From Actinomycetota bacterium (GTDB lineage: Bacteria; Actinomycetota; UBA4738; HRBIN12): a DNA stretch of 35,092 bases. Both the position numbers and the translations under genes were made by a program. Of the stretch, positions 3,541 to 32,575 are shown in pieces. The notes below the pieces were generated by a model that was not told where the DNA came from, searched no databases, and saw nothing but the letters and a program-made list of their open reading frames with translations. The stretch lies in contig JACQDK010000070.1 in NCBI GenBank assembly GCA_016201135.1, positions 1 through 35,092 of the forward strand, in the 5' to 3' direction. How positions within the stretch are numbered: the first letter of the stretch is position 1; every line of letters starts with the position of its first letter.

Positions 3541-3568
3541 GCGTCGATCGGCCCCTCAGCCCGCCGAG

Positions 3569-3582: not shown

Positions 3583-5043
3583 TTGCGCGACCCGATCCCA
3601 GTCCCGCACGCCCCGCGACCGCTCACCGAGCTCGCCCGCCGCCTCTGGGCAGCCTCGCTGGTGGCGCTCCTGGCCCTGGCTCCGGCCGGGGTCTCCTCGG
3701 CGAAGGAGACGCCCGCACCCGGCCCGTGGCCCCAATTCCAGGGCGATCCGGGTCACTCCGGAGTCGCTCCGGATGGTCCGGCGCCGCCGTACCGGCAGGT
3801 TTGGAAGTTCTCGTTCACCCCCAAGAAGGGTGAGGGGCTGTCGGCGCCAGTGATCGACGGGACGACCGTGATCTCGGTCGGGCCCGACGCCGTCTACGGG
3901 GTGGATCTCGAGACCGGCACTCAGTTGTGGTCCGTCCCGAGGGACGGCCCGCCGGCGCCCGCCGCCGTCGCGGAGGCAGGAGGGACGACCCTGCTCCTGT
4001 TCACCGACGGAGGGGATGCCGAAACGTCGAAGCTCCGGGCGATCGATCTCGCGACCCGGAAGGAAGCCTGGGACGTTCCTCTCGATTCGGTGAGCCGCAG
4101 CGGGGTCACGGTCGATGGCGACCACGCGTTCGTCGGCGACGCCGGCGGCAACGTCTCGGCGATCGACGTGGTAGCCGGAGCTCTGGACTGGAGCGTTGCC
4201 GTAGGCGGCGAAGCGAAGGGTCCGCTCGCGGCGGCCGGGGGCAAGGTCTTCGTGGTGCCTCTCTCCCACGAGTTCAAGGACTCCGTGACCGCGACGGTCG
4301 TCGCCCTGGATGCAGCGACCGGGGAGCGTGTGTGGAGCTACGCTCCGCGGCCGCCCTCGTCCTTCGCCTCGCTCGCGAGCGCCGCGGACGGCGAGGTCGT
4401 GGTGGCGTCCCCCGGGTCGATCGGAGACTCCCAGGTGCGGGGGCTATCGGCCGACTCCGGCTCTGAGCTCTGGTCGGGCAGGATAGGTTCGGTCGTGTTC
4501 CCCTTCGTGGCCCCCGCGGTCGCGGGCGAGGCGGTGTACGTCGCGGACGGCACCGGCGGTGTCCACGCGATCGACCGGTCCACGGGCCGGCAGGCGTGGC
4601 TGTTCCAGCTCAACGAGCGAGTCGTTCGGGGCTCGCCGGTCGTGGTGGGGGATCACGTGCTGCTCGGGCTCTCCGACGGGACCCTCGCCGCCGTGGACGC
4701 GACGACCGGCCACCTGGTGTGGCGGAGCCCTCCAGCCCCCGGGCTGATCGGGCCGCTGGCCGTGACGGCGGACACCATCGTGGCGCTGCAGGGTGGAGGC
4801 AAGGGCGGGCTGGTCGCGTTCGCTCACGATGATGCCGGGACGCTCGTCGACTTGGAGTCGCCCACCGTACCGAGGTACGGCGCCATCATCGGCCGCTTCG
4901 CCCTGGCGTTCGTGGCCGTGGGCGCCGCGATCCTCGTTCCCCTCACCTTGGTCGCGCGCCGCGTCGGCCCGACCGACTTCGGTGAGCCGGACGGCGACGA
5001 TGAGGACGACGCGCTCGCCGACGACGACGGAGACGAGCCGTGA
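3583..5043 (+). CDS. Membrane-anchored PQQ-type beta-propeller protein
   Basis: Extracytoplasmic repeat protein of the PQQ/BamB-like propeller superfamily. An N-terminal hydrophobic signal or anchor (LWAASLVALLALAPAGVSSA) is followed by PWPQFQGDPGHSGVAP, the usual opening of these propellers, then about seven blades, each with the A-x-D-x-x-T-G-x-x-x-W signature (VDLETGTQLW, IDLATRKEAW, IDVVAGALDW, LDAATGERVW, LSADSGSELW, IDRSTGRQAW, VDATTGHLVW). A single C-terminal membrane helix (FALAFVAVGAAILVPLTLVA) precedes a very acidic cytoplasmic tail (DGDDEDDALADDDGDE). No enzymatic residues can be assigned, so a binding or scaffold role is likely. The stop overlaps the GTG of the next gene, so the two are co-expressed. 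The start is taken as TTG 3583 from the -10 position; the ORF track uses 3574, three codons longer. Confidence 0.85.
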   Translation: MRDPIPVPHAPRPLTELARRLWAASLVALLALAPAGVSSAKETPAPGPWPQFQGDPGHSGVAPDGPAPPYRQVWKFSFTPKKGEGLSAPVIDGTTVISVGPDAVYGVDLETGTQLWSVPRDGPPAPAAVAEAGGTTLLLFTDGGDAETSKLRAIDLATRKEAWDVPLDSVSRSGVTVDGDHAFVGDAGGNVSAIDVVAGALDWSVAVGGEAKGPLAAAGGKVFVVPLSHEFKDSVTATVVALDAATGERVWSYAPRPPSSFASLASAADGEVVVASPGSIGDSQVRGLSADSGSELWSGRIGSVVFPFVAPAVAGEAVYVADGTGGVHAIDRSTGRQAWLFQLNERVVRGSPVVVGDHVLLGLSDGTLAAVDATTGHLVWRSPPAPGLIGPLAVTADTIVALQGGGKGGLVAFAHDDAGTLVDLESPTVPRYGAIIGRFALAFVAVGAAILVPLTLVARRVGPTDFGEPDGDDEDDALADDDGDEP

Positions 5044-18859: not shown

Positions 18860-18907
18860 ACCTCACGCACCTTCACGCGGTTGCACCGATGGGGCAAGCG
18901 CCCGTGC

Positions 18908-18913
18908 TACCTT
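18908..18913 (+). promoter_or_regulatory. Possible -10 box TACCTT of the divergent secreted-protein gene
   Basis: TACCTT lies between the divergent trp promoter and the gene at 18972 and would give a leader of about 52 nt containing AGGAGGG. No matching -35 at normal spacing is seen. Confidence 0.3.
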
Positions 18914-18956
18914 TCGTCAACCGGGCGGTCCGCCGCCCGGCCCGAACGACCATCGC

Positions 18957-18963
18957 AGGAGGG
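18957..18963 (+). promoter_or_regulatory. Ribosome binding site AGGAGGG, decides GTG 18972
   Basis: AGGAGGG lies 8 nt before GTG 18972, the codon from which a signal peptide begins. The longer ORF-track start at 18675 would overlap trpE and is rejected. Confidence 0.75.
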
Positions 18964-18971
18964 AATCTCGA

Positions 18972-20600
18972 GTGTTCCGCAAGACCCGTCGCCTGATCCC
19001 CATCGTCACGCTGCTCGTGTTCGCCGCCTCGCTCAATGCGGCGGCCGGAGGTCGGGAGGCCACTCGGCCCGGCAGGTTCACCGGAAGTGCCCATGCCGGA
19101 GTGCCCGCGGAGCGGCGCACCACGCCTCTTCGCAGCGACATCCCGCCCGGCCGCCTCGATCGCCTCCACCGGCAGGCCGAGGGGACCTCCCGCTCGGTCG
19201 CGTCCAGGACCTCTCCGAGGCGGAGCACCGCCACGGTGGGGACGAGCTTCGCGGGGGTCGCCAACATGAACCCGGTCGCCTCGCCGTCCGACTCCACCGG
19301 CGCTGCGGGCCCCGACTTCGTGATGGCGGCGGTCAACGTCCACGTCCAGGTGTTCGACCGGACGGGCGCGACGCAGGCCGGCCCGTTCCGCCTCAAGTCG
19401 CTCTTCAACAACCTGCCCGCGGGCACGGACACGGACCCGAAGGTCGTCTACGACACGTACAGCGACACCTTCGTTCTCGCCTACCTCCTGTACAACAACC
19501 ACGAGGACTACATCGTGATCGTCACGATCCCCGGTGCGACCGCCGACAAGAAGAGCACGTGGTGCCCGCTCGTGCTGAACGGCGACCAGATCGCGGGAGA
19601 CGGACATCAGTTCGCGGACTATCCGGGCCTGGGCTTCACCGCCGATCGCGTCACGATCACCACCAACAACTTCCCGTTCTCGGGTCCGGGCTTCGACTAC
19701 GTTCAGATCCTCTCGTTCAAGAAGTCGAAGCTCTACGACTGCAGCCTGAGTACCGTGCCTTTCACGGTTCTAGGGGGGAAGCAGACACGCGACCCCGACG
19801 GTTCGAAGGCGTTCACGATCCAGCCGGCAGAGACGATCGGGGGATCGTCGCCGAAGGTCCAGTACATGGCCTCCTTCGACCACAGCGGGTCGGGCCCGAG
19901 CCACGTCGTGCTGTGGCGTCTCAAGTTCCTCAACCACAACCCGAGACTGGCGAGGACGGCGATCGGCGTTGGAAGCGTGAGCATCCCGCCGTACGGGCGC
20001 CAGTGTGGCACGACGAGCATCGACACGAGGTGGGATACGGGAGACATGCGTCTCATCAACGCCTACTTCGACGCAGACACCGGGTTCTTGTACACGGCGC
20101 ACGCCGTTTCGCACGTGTGGGCGCCGGCCGTGAACAGGCAGTCGGCCGCCCGCTGGTACGAGATCCGCGTGGTCGGAAATCTCTACAACTCGGCGATCCC
20201 CCGGAACGGCTACGTCGGCGGGGACGGCTACGACGTGGCCTGGCCCTCCGTGGCGACCAACTCGGCTGGGGTGCTGTTCGTGAACTTCACGGAGGGCAGC
20301 TCCACGCTGGCCGCGCCCGGCGGGGTCGCCTCCACCGAGTGCCTGTCGTTGCTGGCCACTACCGTCCTGCCCGGGCAGGAGGCCGACACGGGTCCCGTCC
20401 TGGTCAAGGAGGGCGAGGCCCGGTACGACTTCGGGACCGGAGTCGAGAGGTGGGGGGATTACAGCGCCATCAACCGCGATCCCCTCGACGGGACTCAGAT
20501 GGTCGCCTTCGGCGCCTATGCGTTCAACGCCGGCACGATCGACGCGACCGCCACGACGTACCTGTGGAACGAGTGGGTCGCCTCACTGAGCGACGTCTGA
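18972..20600 (+). CDS. Secreted protein of unknown function
   Basis: I do not recognise a named family. A signal peptide (MFRKTRRLIPIVTLLVFAASLNAAAG) is followed by a Pro/Arg-rich stretch of about 60 residues and then a long Tyr/Phe/Asp-rich domain with repeated patterns such as DSTGAAGPDFVMAAVN, DPKVVYDTYSDTFVLAY, FADYPGLGFTADRVTITTN, YDVAWPSVATNSAGVLFVNF and RWGDYSAINRDPLDGTQMVAFG. These read like blades of a sialidase-type or other beta-propeller, an inference from pattern only. A few cysteines (WCPLV, DCSL, RQCGTT, ECLS) could form disulfides. 542 residues from GTG 18972. It is divergent from trpLEG and transcribed alone. No catalytic residues can be named. Confidence 0.8.
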   Translation: MFRKTRRLIPIVTLLVFAASLNAAAGGREATRPGRFTGSAHAGVPAERRTTPLRSDIPPGRLDRLHRQAEGTSRSVASRTSPRRSTATVGTSFAGVANMNPVASPSDSTGAAGPDFVMAAVNVHVQVFDRTGATQAGPFRLKSLFNNLPAGTDTDPKVVYDTYSDTFVLAYLLYNNHEDYIVIVTIPGATADKKSTWCPLVLNGDQIAGDGHQFADYPGLGFTADRVTITTNNFPFSGPGFDYVQILSFKKSKLYDCSLSTVPFTVLGGKQTRDPDGSKAFTIQPAETIGGSSPKVQYMASFDHSGSGPSHVVLWRLKFLNHNPRLARTAIGVGSVSIPPYGRQCGTTSIDTRWDTGDMRLINAYFDADTGFLYTAHAVSHVWAPAVNRQSAARWYEIRVVGNLYNSAIPRNGYVGGDGYDVAWPSVATNSAGVLFVNFTEGSSTLAAPGGVASTECLSLLATTVLPGQEADTGPVLVKEGEARYDFGTGVERWGDYSAINRDPLDGTQMVAFGAYAFNAGTIDATATTYLWNEWVASLSDV

Positions 20601-27936: not shown

Positions 27937-28906
27937 CTTCGCGCGCGCGGCGCAAGTCCTTCGCGACGCACCCGAGGTGGCCATCACGTGCCACGTGAAC
28001 CCTGATGCCGACGCGCTCGGCGCGATGCTGGGGCTCGCGGCGTTCCTTCGCGAGCGAGGCACGTCGACCACGTGCGCGTTCCCCAACGAGCCGCCGGACG
28101 CGCCGCGCTGGGCCCGCATGCTGCCCGGCTCGTCGGCGCTCGTGGCGGTGAAGGAGTTCCCGAAGGCCCCGGCGGTGATGGTGACCTGCGACTGCGCCTC
28201 GAGCGACCGGCTGGGGCCGCTGCTCGGCGCTGCGAACAGGGCGGGCGAGCTGATCTGGATCGACCATCACCGCTCGAATGAGGGACTGGGGACGATCCCC
28301 CTCATCGACCCTGAGGCCTCCTCCTCGTGCGAGCTCGTGTGGCGGCTGATCGGCGAGATCGGGGGGAAGGTTCCCACCGACACGGCGATCTGCCTGTACG
28401 CGGGACTCGTCACGGATACGGGCCGGTTCCAGTACGAGGCGGTGCGTCCCGAGACGCTCCGGCTGGCGGCCGAGCTCCGGGAGTTCGACTTCGACCACGC
28501 TCGCCTCGTGCAGGCGCTGTACGAGGACAACGGGCGGAGATACCTCCAGCTGGTCGGGCTGGCCCTCGGGCGGCTCGCCTTCGTTCCCGAAGCCGACCTC
28601 GTGTGGACGTACCTGACGCAGGCGGACCTCCGCGAGGCCGGGGTGCACCCCGGCGAGACCGACGATCTGATCGACGTGATCCGCACCGATCGCGACGCCG
28701 ACGTGGCGGCCCTCGTGAAGCAGCAGAAGGACGGAAGGTTCAAGGTGAGCGTGCGCTCGCGAGGAGGGCACGACCTCGCGAAGGTCGCGGCGGTGTTCGG
28801 GGGCGGTGGCCATCGCCTGGCGGCCGGATACACCTCCAAGCATGGACCCGCCGAGACGGTCGACCAGCTCGCCGCGGCTCTGCGGGGGGAACCGGTCGTG
28901 CCGTGA
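27929..28906 (+). CDS. nrnA: DHH-family phosphoesterase, NrnA-like
   Basis: Degrades short oligoribonucleotides (nanoRNA) and/or 3'-phosphoadenosine 5'-phosphate; cyclic dinucleotide breakdown products are a further possibility. The DHH domain has ITCHVNPDADALGAMLGLAAFLRERG, TCDCASSDRLG and the name motif WIDHHRSN, all metal-binding. The C-terminal DHHA1 domain ends in the substrate-binding GGGGHRLAAGY. 325 residues. ATG 27929 overlaps rbfA; the stop overlaps the truB GTG. Placement between rbfA and truB is standard for this family. Confidence 0.93.
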   Translation: MLDFARAAQVLRDAPEVAITCHVNPDADALGAMLGLAAFLRERGTSTTCAFPNEPPDAPRWARMLPGSSALVAVKEFPKAPAVMVTCDCASSDRLGPLLGAANRAGELIWIDHHRSNEGLGTIPLIDPEASSSCELVWRLIGEIGGKVPTDTAICLYAGLVTDTGRFQYEAVRPETLRLAAELREFDFDHARLVQALYEDNGRRYLQLVGLALGRLAFVPEADLVWTYLTQADLREAGVHPGETDDLIDVIRTDRDADVAALVKQQKDGRFKVSVRSRGGHDLAKVAAVFGGGGHRLAAGYTSKHGPAETVDQLAAALRGEPVVP

Positions 28907-29748
28907 ACGGGCCCGAGGGCCTGCTGCTCGTCGACAAGCCTAAGGGCGTCACGTCGCACGACGTCGTTGACGTCGTGCGACGTGCTCTCTCCACGAGGAA
29001 GGTCGGCCATGCCGGAACCCTCGATCCGATGGCAACGGGCCTGTTGATCCTGGGGGTCGGCAGGGCCACGCGCCTGCTCCGGTTCCTGGGCGATCTGCCG
29101 AAGACGTACGCGGGCCGCGCCCTCCTGGGGGTGGAGACCACCACCCTCGACGCCGACGGCGACGTCGTTCGCAGATCGCCCGTGGAGATCGGCGAGGTGC
29201 GGGTTCGCGAGGCCATGGCCGCGCTCGTGGGGGACTCGACGCAGCGGCCGCCGGCCTACAGCGCCGTGAAGGTCGGCGGGCGCAAGCTCTACGAGGCGGC
29301 CCGCAAGGGGGAGCGCCTGGAGGCTGCGCCTCGGCCGATACGCGTTGACCGGTTCGAGCTGACCGGCTTCGATCCCCCCGACGCCGACTTCGACGTGACC
29401 TGCTCGGGCGGCACCTACGTGCGCGTCCTCGCCGCGGACGTTGGAGCGGCGCTCGGGTGCGGTGCCCACCTCACGGCGCTGCGGCGCACTTCGATAGGTC
29501 CGTTCGACGTCCGGGAGGCGGTCCTGCCCGAAGACGTCCGGAACCCCCTGCCGATCGAGCGCGCCGTCGCCCACCTGCCGCGGGTGGAGCTCGACCCCGA
29601 GGAGGCCGCAGCCGCCCGGAACGGACGGATCCTGGGGCCCATGGGTTTCGGCGGTCCCTATGCCGTCTTCGACCCCGATGGGCCCCTCATCGGCGTGTAC
29701 CTCGACGAGGGAACCAAGGGAAGGCCGCAGGTTATCCTCGCGTCGTGA
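28903..29748 (+). CDS. truB: tRNA pseudouridine-55 synthase
   Basis: Converts U55 to pseudouridine in the T loop of tRNAs. Catalytic D41 lies in KVGHAGTLDPMATGLL. Other motifs: GLLLVDKPKGVTSHDVV, RATRLLRFLGDLPKTYAGRALLGVETTTLDADG, QRPPAYSAVKVGGRKLYEAARKGE and CSGGTYVRVLAADVG. The C-terminal part is shortened with an actinobacterial-style domain. 281 residues from GTG 28903, overlapping the nrnA stop. Its end contains the -10-like box of the next gene. Confidence 0.97.
   Translation: MNGPEGLLLVDKPKGVTSHDVVDVVRRALSTRKVGHAGTLDPMATGLLILGVGRATRLLRFLGDLPKTYAGRALLGVETTTLDADGDVVRRSPVEIGEVRVREAMAALVGDSTQRPPAYSAVKVGGRKLYEAARKGERLEAAPRPIRVDRFELTGFDPPDADFDVTCSGGTYVRVLAADVGAALGCGAHLTALRRTSIGPFDVREAVLPEDVRNPLPIERAVAHLPRVELDPEEAAAARNGRILGPMGFGGPYAVFDPDGPLIGVYLDEGTKGRPQVILAS
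29733..29738 (+). promoter_or_regulatory. -10 box TATCCT inside the truB end
   Basis: TATCCT ends 6 nt before GTG 29745. It could give an internal leaderless transcript for the YbhN-like gene in addition to read-through from the operon. Confidence 0.4.
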
Positions 29749-30839
29749 GCGCGCCCCGCCCCGCCCCGCGCAGCCACCCCGCGTGGCGAGCGTTGCAGAT
29801 CCTGGTCTCGGTCCTCGTCGTCGGCGGGATCTTCGCGTTCGCGATCCCCAACGTGGCGGACTACGGCGCCGTGTGGAGGGCGATCGTCGCCATGAGGGGG
29901 CTCGAGATCTCCTCGCTCGTGCTCGTGACGTTGATGAACCTCGTGACGTACTGGCCCCAGCAGACGGCGGCGATGCCCGGCCTCAAGATCTCGCAGGCGG
30001 CGGTGAACAACCAGTCCTCGACGTCGATCGCGAACACGCTGCCGGGCGGGGGCGCGATCGCGGTCGGCGTGAGCTACGCGATGTACCGCTCGTGGGGCTT
30101 CCCCAACTCCGCCATCGCCCTCTCCGTGTTGGTGACCGGGATCTGGAACATGTTCATGAAGCTCGGGCTCCCGATCGTGGCCATCGCGATCCTCGCGGTG
30201 CAGGGGGGCTCGACCGCCGGACTGCTCCTCGCCGCCCTGATCGGATTCGCGGTGCTGCTCGCGGCCGTCGTGCTCTTCGCGCTCATGCTGCGGAAAGAAG
30301 CCTTCGCGGAGCGGATCGGCGACGCGCTGTCGGCGCCGGTGAACACCGCTCGGAGGCTGGTGCGAAGGGTGCCGGTGGATGGCTGGGGTACTAGGGCCGT
30401 CCGGCTCCGGAGGCAGGTCGTCGACCTGGTCGAGGATCGGTGGCTGAAGCTCACGGTCTCGACCGTGGTGAGCCACCTTTGCCTGTGGCTGGTGCTGCTG
30501 CTCGCGACCCGCGCCGTGGGCATCTCCGCGCGTGAGATCACCACCGCGGAGGTGCTGGCCGTGTTCGCGTTCGGCCGGCTGATCAGCGCACTGCCGATCA
30601 CGCCGGGCGGGGTCGGCATCGTGGAGCTCGGGTACATCGGGGGTCTGGTTCTGGCGGGACGCGGGGCGACCGACGTGCCACCGGATGTGTTCCGCGCGCA
30701 GGTGACGGCGGCGGTCCTCGTCTTCCGGGCTCTCACGTACGGCTTCCAGATCCCGCTTGGCGGCCTCACGTACCTGATCTGGCGCGCCAAGAAGAGCTGG
30801 CTGAAACCGGTGCCGCCCGAGGAGGGGGCGCCGGGGTAG
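29745..30839 (+). CDS. YbhN/LPG-synthase-TM-like membrane protein
   Basis: Polytopic membrane protein resembling the lysylphosphatidylglycerol synthase transmembrane region family (UPF0104/YbhN/AglD group), whose members are linked to lipid handling or flipping. About eight hydrophobic segments include ILVSVLVVGGIFAFAI, ISSLVLVTLMNLVTYW, LLLAALIGFAVLLAAVVLFALML and VSHLCLWLVLLLATRAVGI. The family motifs PGGGAIAVGVSYAM and LPITPGGVGIVELGYIGGLVLAG are present. No aminoacyl-transferase domain follows, so it is not a complete MprF. 364 residues from GTG 29745 (GTGA overlap with truB). Together with the PAP2 gene it separates truB from ribF, which usually follows truB closely. Confidence 0.87.
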   Translation: MSAPRPAPRSHPAWRALQILVSVLVVGGIFAFAIPNVADYGAVWRAIVAMRGLEISSLVLVTLMNLVTYWPQQTAAMPGLKISQAAVNNQSSTSIANTLPGGGAIAVGVSYAMYRSWGFPNSAIALSVLVTGIWNMFMKLGLPIVAIAILAVQGGSTAGLLLAALIGFAVLLAAVVLFALMLRKEAFAERIGDALSAPVNTARRLVRRVPVDGWGTRAVRLRRQVVDLVEDRWLKLTVSTVVSHLCLWLVLLLATRAVGISAREITTAEVLAVFAFGRLISALPITPGGVGIVELGYIGGLVLAGRGATDVPPDVFRAQVTAAVLVFRALTYGFQIPLGGLTYLIWRAKKSWLKPVPPEEGAPG

Positions 30840-31382
30840 TCAGTCCGCGGGCGCCGCGTGTGCCTCGCGCCCCTGCGCATGCCCCTGCTCGCGCCCCAGC
30901 AGCATCCAGATCTCCGTCGCGAGCGCGGCTGAGCCGATCGCGATGCCCGCGCCCAGCAGCACCCCCGCCACGACGTCGGAGAGCCAGTGCGCGACCAGGT
31001 AGACGCGCGAGAAGGCCATGACGAACGAGAAGGCGACCGCGATCCACTCCCACTTCCTGCGCCGAGGTCCCGAGGGGATGAACGCGAGCACGAGAGCGAC
31101 CGCCATCGCTGCCCCCGCCACGGCATGACCGGACGGGAATGAGTAGCCCCTCACGGCAACGAGCGGCCCCGGCGGCCGCCCCCGGTGGAAGTAGGCCTTC
31201 ATCGCCGTGAGCAGAACCTCCGAGGACACCCAGGTGAGGACGAACGCAGCGAACCGGTGCCACCTTCGGCGGACGGCGAGCACGACGGATGCGGCGCCGC
31301 GCAAGGGGATCGTCACGTATCCGCTGCCGGCGACGTTCAAGAACGCGAAGAGCCAAGTCACGACGGCGTTCACCTGGGGCAT
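30840..31382 (-). CDS. PAP2-family phosphatase, probably N-terminally shortened
   Basis: Membrane phosphatase of the PAP2 superfamily (lipid phosphate or undecaprenyl-diphosphate type). The three motifs are complete: KAYFHRGRP (K-x6-RP), YSFPSGH and SRVYLVAHWLSD (SR-x5-H-x3-D). Four or five hydrophobic segments remain. The recognisable family sequence begins right at ATG 31382 ([23 protein letters not shown]), without the first helix and its upstream segment that most members have. A GGAG lies 9 nt before this ATG. Upstream codons in the same frame are antisense of ribF and do not look like PAP2. It converges on the YbhN-like gene with directly abutting stop codons. Activity is plausible but the shortened start is suspicious. 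Confidence 0.85.
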   Translation of the reverse strand: MPQVNAVVTWLFAFLNVAGSGYVTIPLRGAASVVLAVRRRWHRFAAFVLTWVSSEVLLTAMKAYFHRGRPPGPLVAVRGYSFPSGHAVAGAAMAVALVLAFIPSGPRRRKWEWIAVAFSFVMAFSRVYLVAHWLSDVVAGVLLGAGIAIGSAALATEIWMLLGREQGHAQGREAHAAPAD

Positions 31383-32231
31383 CGAGAGGTGCTCCGGCGC
31401 ACGGTCGAGGCCGCCGGCGAGCGGGGCACGCGGAGCGTCGCCGTCACGTTCGACCGCCACCCGCGTGAGGTGCTGACGCCCTCCGACGTGCCGCGGCTGC
31501 TCACGACGGTGGAGCGGAAGGCGTCGATGATCGAGACGACCGGTATCGACCTGCTGGTCGTGCTCGAGTTCACCCCGGCCTTCTCGAAGGTCACGGCAGA
31601 GGACTTCGTGCACGACGTGCTGATCGGGGGCCTCCACGCCGCGCACGCGCGGATGGGCGTGAACTTCACGTTCGGTCACAAGGCCATGGGGAACGTCGAG
31701 ACCCTGAGGGAGATGGGAGCGCGTCACGGCCTCACGGCGGAGGCCGTGCCACTGGTCCAGGTCGGGAACAAGACCGTCTCCTCGTCGTCGGTGCGGGCTG
31801 CGCTCGCGGCCGGCGACCTCGCATGGCCCGTCACGGCCCTCGGCCGGCGTTTCGTGCTCGACGGAGAGGTGGTTGCCGGCTCGGGCCGCGGCCACGACCT
31901 GGGCTACCCCACGGCGAACCTTCGCACCCGGCCCCGGCTCCTGCTTCCCGGGCCGGGTGTCTACGCCGGCGCGGCCGAGCTGTCCGGAGGCCGCAGGTAC
32001 CTCGCCGCGATCGACGTGGGCACGAACCCGACCTTCGGGGTCGAGCCCCTCCACGTCGAGGCGTTCCTGCTCGACTACGACGGGCACGACCTGCATGGTC
32101 AGCCGCTCGCCGTGGAGTTCTGGGAGCGACTCCGCGACGAGATCAGGTTCGACAGCGCGGAGGATCTCGTGAGGGCGATCGCAGGCGACGTCGAGCGGAC
32201 CCGCCAGATCGTCAGGTCTCCCGACCGGTAG
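31185..32231 (+). CDS. ribF: Bifunctional riboflavin kinase/FAD synthetase with disrupted N-terminus
   Basis: RibF phosphorylates riboflavin to FMN and adenylylates it to FAD. Family similarity starts abruptly at [19 protein letters not shown] (31362) and continues intact: [40 protein letters not shown], then the kinase domain [29 protein letters not shown] and [29 protein letters not shown]. The expected first strand (a VVTIGNF-type segment before DGVHLGH) is missing. The codons from ATG 31185, or GTG 31257, are antisense of the PAP2 gene and give a Gly/Asp/Glu-rich stretch unlike RibF. The start is therefore uncertain. Either the adenylyltransferase half is damaged, or the junction at about 31360-31382 is an assembly error. 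The riboflavin-kinase half looks complete. Confidence 0.75.
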
Positions 32232-32305: not shown

Positions 32306-32575
32306 ATGGCGCTCACCACGGAAGACAAGACCCAGATCATCAGGGAGCACGCCCGTTCCACGGGCGACACAGGCTCCACCGAGGTGCAGATCGCGGTGCT
32401 CTCGCGCCGCATCGCCGACCTGACCGAGCATCTGAAGATGCACAAGGGCGACCATCACTCCAGGCGCGGCCTGCTCCAGATGGTCGGGCGTCGTCGCAGG
32501 CTGCTCGAGTACCTGAAGAACGAGGACATCGATCGGTACCGGGCGCTGATCGCGAAGCTCGGTCTCCGTCGATAG
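32306..32575 (+). CDS. rpsO: 30S ribosomal protein S15
   Basis: Primary 16S rRNA-binding protein of the platform. The product [89 protein letters not shown] is a complete 89-residue S15. Start is ATG 32306; the ORF-track extension to 31823 is a ribF shadow. pnp follows after a 217-nt structured gap, as in many bacteria. Confidence 0.98.

Follow-up and report, generated by a model that had tools for sequence, protein, structure and literature searches.

The junction between a gene for a PAP2-superfamily phosphatase and a divergent ribF raises the question of whether an actinobacterium can have discarded the starts of both genes, one of them for an essential enzyme, or whether the loss exists only in the assembled sequence. 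The window, that is, the whole stretch of 35,092 nucleotides analysed here, is an entire contig (G000:C109) of a draft genome of 132 contigs and 2.24 Mb that is 89.8% complete. It was compared with metagenome-assembled Actinobacteria/Actinomycetota, and from these relatives we infer that G000 was also assembled from a metagenome. Gene order in the window is truB, an LPG-flippase-like gene, PAP2 on the minus strand, ribF, rpsO and pnp (Table 1). The evidence set out below indicates that the ribF/PAP2 junction is most likely no real biological feature.

Table 1. Features at and around the ribF/PAP2 junction, in window coordinates.
Feature	Position	Strand	Basis
truB	28903..29748	+	conserved neighbour; tblastn synteny
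LPG-synthase/flippase-like membrane protein gene	29745..30839	+	adjoins PAP2 in relatives too; tblastn synteny
PAP2-superfamily phosphatase gene lacking its first ~60 codons	30840..31382	-	PF01569 match; alignment with seven orthologues
Open frame 5' of ribF, merely PAP2 antisense	31185..31361	+	in-frame GTG at 31185 and 31257; low-confidence model
Join, CGACGGCGTTC, longest stretch fitting both PAP2 (-) and ribF (+)	31361..31371	.	invariant R beyond it (PAP2 orthologues), F before it (ribF relatives)
ribF lacking its first ~24 codons	31362..32231	+	PF06574 and PF01687 profile matches; alignment A1
rpsO	32306..32575	+	conserved, downstream of ribF; tblastn synteny

Both genes are cut short at their 5' ends and are otherwise well preserved. 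An earlier note on this DNA had observed that RibF similarity starts abruptly at DGVHLGH (31362), with no VVTIGNF-type strand before it, and both profile matches and an alignment with relatives bear this out. The window RibF matches Pfam FAD_syn (PF06574) at profile positions 15-157 only, and its match to TIGR00083, a profile of 290 positions, begins at position 7. Its riboflavin kinase domain is complete (PF01687, profile positions 1-123 of 124, E 1.8e-34). The RibF proteins of relatives typically carry 24 extra residues before DGVHLGH, of the type MEVVRGLDALPL..PSVVT(V/I)GFF and ending V(V/A)T(V/I)GFF. The family motif is Phi-G-x-F-D-G-Phi-H-x-G-H (PMC2573891), of which the window protein has DGVHLGH alone, the G and F being replaced (EPSH) and the strand that precedes the motif being absent. 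In the proposed mode of ATP binding, the alpha phosphate is contacted by main-chain atoms of G22, F24 and D25 (PMC2573891), and the equivalents of G22 and F24 are lost together with that first strand; were the join real, the protein would, judged from the sequence, be severely affected.

From DGVHLGH to its end the window copy is an ordinary RibF, including HxGH, TFDRHP, NFTFG, SSS and the kinase domain, with 54-69% identity over the alignment to those of family and order members, but it differs from them in lacking the first ~24 residues. The remaining adenylyltransferase motifs (TFDRHP, GxNFTFG and SSS.R in alignment A1) are present, in this part the window protein agrees with 19 relatives at every column that is invariant among them, and the FMNAT/RFK identity ratio of 0.912 falls among those of other relatives (0.85-1.0). 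Every relative with a whole locus retains the normal ribF start; the other incomplete copies in the order either run off contig ends (G011, G015) or contain a run of N (G019).

On the minus strand, the window PAP2 retains all three parts of the catalytic motif of these membrane phosphatases (KxxxxxxRP, PSGH and SRxxxxxHxxxD) in an alignment with seven orthologues, and the orthologue of G003 is 63-64% identical to it over the common part. The window copy differs in lacking the first ~60 residues, including the first predicted helix; the orthologues extend further at the N-terminus and share the conserved start L.(D/N)HRR(A/T). The earlier note had placed the beginning of PAP2 similarity at MPQVNAVV (31382), without the first helix. 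The truncation stands, but the starting point does not: similarity stops at the N of MPQVNAVV (codon 31370-31368), at the next residue the orthologues have an invariant R and the window has V, and MPQV is the antisense of the ribF residues HLGH. The ATG of MPQV, which happens to have GGAG nine bases upstream, is at most a putative start codon.

Upstream of each gene, the frame that stays open consists of the other gene read in antisense, as had been noted before, although the further claim that the same 21 bp (31362-31382) is common to both families is not borne out. The PAP2-derived sequence can extend no further than 31371, and the earliest ribF-derived position is 31361. The overlap is thus 0 to 11 bp, because the invariant R of the PAP2 orthologues is V here and the F codon of ribF is lost. 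Across random breakpoints of similar spacing within the window, runs of at least 9 bp occur at a frequency of about 3e-4, so short homology is likely, from the sequence, to have guided the join.

Relatives show what has been lost at this point. Two members of the same family, both of genus g4 (G003 and G013), match the window in gene order and strand, and their PAP2 and ribF, likewise divergent, are both whole; the positions that touch in the window lie 425-432 bp apart in them, as computed from their positions. Since both genes are whole at this spacing, at least ~433 bp would be missing from the window relative to this shortest arrangement, comprising ~24 ribF codons, ~60 PAP2 codons, both start codons and the intergenic region. 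The PAP2-ribF spacing is ~820 bp in G016 and ~3.5 kb in G006, G014 and G010, the last because a PAP2-kinase fusion gene sits between the two genes. No same-genus genome was found with which to compare the join.

The fusion gene itself, found in several members of the family (L146, L147, L148, L149, L154), encodes a large protein in which a conserved RRPSGEPPPLP segment close to the N-terminus accompanies a divergent PAP2-like membrane domain and a kinase-like domain (HRDIKPANL). G009, like G006, G014 and G010, carries the gene in the interval from PAP2 to ribF.

What is directly observed is that sequence is missing, that gene order is conserved and that the remaining domains are intact; the join is probably false, a deletion artefact of the draft assembly. 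The chimeric assembly join that the earlier note offered as its alternative is therefore the reading preferred here, as relatives keep both 5' ends and the remaining domains show no decay. The true genome very probably resembles G003 and G013, both of which keep the skipped sequence in place, and holds a whole PAP2 and a whole ribF, divergent and separated by a common intergenic region. In the contig, a point within PAP2 would be linked to a point within ribF through a common sequence of no more than 11 bp. The stretch skipped would be at least ~433 bp long, or ~3.5 kb should the ancestor have resembled G006 in carrying the PAP2-kinase gene between the two. A chimeric read, a template switch or an assembler shortcut may have been the cause. 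The absence of decay in the adenylyltransferase part of ribF and in the PAP2 motifs implies that the join arose very recently, if it is present in the cells at all.

Some observations sit less easily with a false join. The common sequence, 11 bp at the longest, is short against the overlap that a de Bruijn assembler usually works with. When the missing 5' pieces were sought in G000 with the N-termini of relatives' PAP2 and RibF proteins, only the window copies and unrelated weak matches were returned, and no other contig of this genome carries the pieces; short contigs are, however, often left unbinned. Lastly, no other gene in the remainder of the 35-kb contig proved to be broken on comparison with G008 and G003, and the contig as a whole is therefore sound.

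That comparison yielded two observations apart from the junction. The ~1.7 kb between a trpE-like gene and proS (18873-20600) is matchless in G008 and G003 and holds a long plus-strand frame and a short minus-strand frame, neither with a Pfam or NCBIfam match. A nusA-like gene of G008 (L157, G008:C1) matches the window in two frames and that of G003 in one, perhaps owing to a frameshift in G008.

Damage of a comparable kind occurs in assemblies of this sort, and favours a false join in the window. In G016 (L151, G016:C169), scored against the ~94% identical G013, PAP2 has a deletion of ~124 bp near 3551 and ribF one of ~84-88 bp near 4551; both cause frameshifts, and the deletion ends share little or no sequence. 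In G000 itself, contig C53 ends in a PAP2-kinase gene (L168, minus strand, 47-1768) whose reading frame continues into the C-terminus of an aldo/keto reductase (Pfam E 1.8e-4, just under Pfam's cut-off). GC drops there from ~68% to 53-62%, and the relatives' versions of the gene lack this end; it appears to be a further false join of the same assembly, although its place at a contig end means that it may have another cause. In these cases, as in the window, homology breaks off abruptly within conserved genes whose sequence is otherwise intact, but the deletions of G016 are short, internal and frameshifting, whereas the C53 join brings together two unrelated genes at the end of a contig. C53 was also considered as the missing loop, for it carries a PAP2-kinase relative, and was rejected: it has other neighbours and neither a ribF nor a PAP2 5' end.

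It is possible, if doubtful, that the deletion is real but very recent, having arisen in the sequenced cells or a minority strain by slippage or end joining at the short common sequence and leaving that strain impaired or doomed. The common stretch at the join, with the rarity of such runs by chance, would suit this origin, as would the natural variation of PAP2-ribF spacing among family members, from 0.43 to 3.5 kb, and the absence of the missing pieces from other G000 contigs. Yet neither gene has decayed, and such a deletion would remove the sole known FAD synthase of G000, and ribF is essential in mycobacteria. In Mycobacterium tuberculosis, silencing of ribF is bactericidal and the addition of FMN or FAD gives no rescue (PMC11302143), which also favours a false join.

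A fixed deletion with function retained, whether because another enzyme, as yet unknown, makes FAD or because RibF works with an N-terminus read from PAP2 antisense, is very unlikely. The open frame does continue upstream of ribF with two in-frame GTG codons, and a genome of this completeness could be missing a gene. A search of the genome for a second RibF or a RibL-like enzyme, however, found no RibF and returned only two CTP_transf_like matches, a count that nadD plus coaD would account for. In an AlphaFold2 model of the window ribF frame, residues 11-59 have pLDDT below 50 and the only strand at least three residues long before DGVH is an isolated one at residues 2-6, whereas in the full-length RibF of G007, modelled as a control, a strand lies at residues 17-21, within blocks that average pLDDT 91-95; the antisense-derived N-terminus is thus predicted to give no replacement for the lost strand. 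The motif's G and F and the first strand would still be gone, against a normal start in every relative with a whole locus. Moreover, an old deletion with FAD supplied by another protein should have let the adenylyltransferase part decay, and none is seen. The suggestions of FAD from another protein or of a working new N-terminus thus find nothing in their support, and the search of G000 for another ribF and for the missing 5' fragments, which had been proposed alongside them, returned neither.

The earlier note had also named inversion, insertion or deletion at a short shared sequence as the origin of the junction; synteny with G003 and G013 agrees with the deletion, real or false, but inversion or insertion of foreign DNA is hardly conceivable, the two divergent genes being all that speaks for it beyond that suggestion, since truB, the LPG gene, PAP2, ribF and rpsO keep the order and strands of G003 and G013, nothing is inverted, and no extra or foreign sequence lies between PAP2 and ribF.

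For draft genomes the locus is a warning that one short-homology join can silently delete the starts of two genes. Gene callers at such joins would give an odd N-terminus or a shortened protein, but the joins are recognisable by the conserved neighbours in relatives and by the absence of decay in what remains. A real junction would mean that half of the ATP-binding motif of an essential enzyme had gone, and would call for a hidden route to FAD; if the deletion were fixed, an actinobacterial lineage would have lost ordinary RibF-based FAD synthesis. As it stands, we infer that living cells still possess the missing part.
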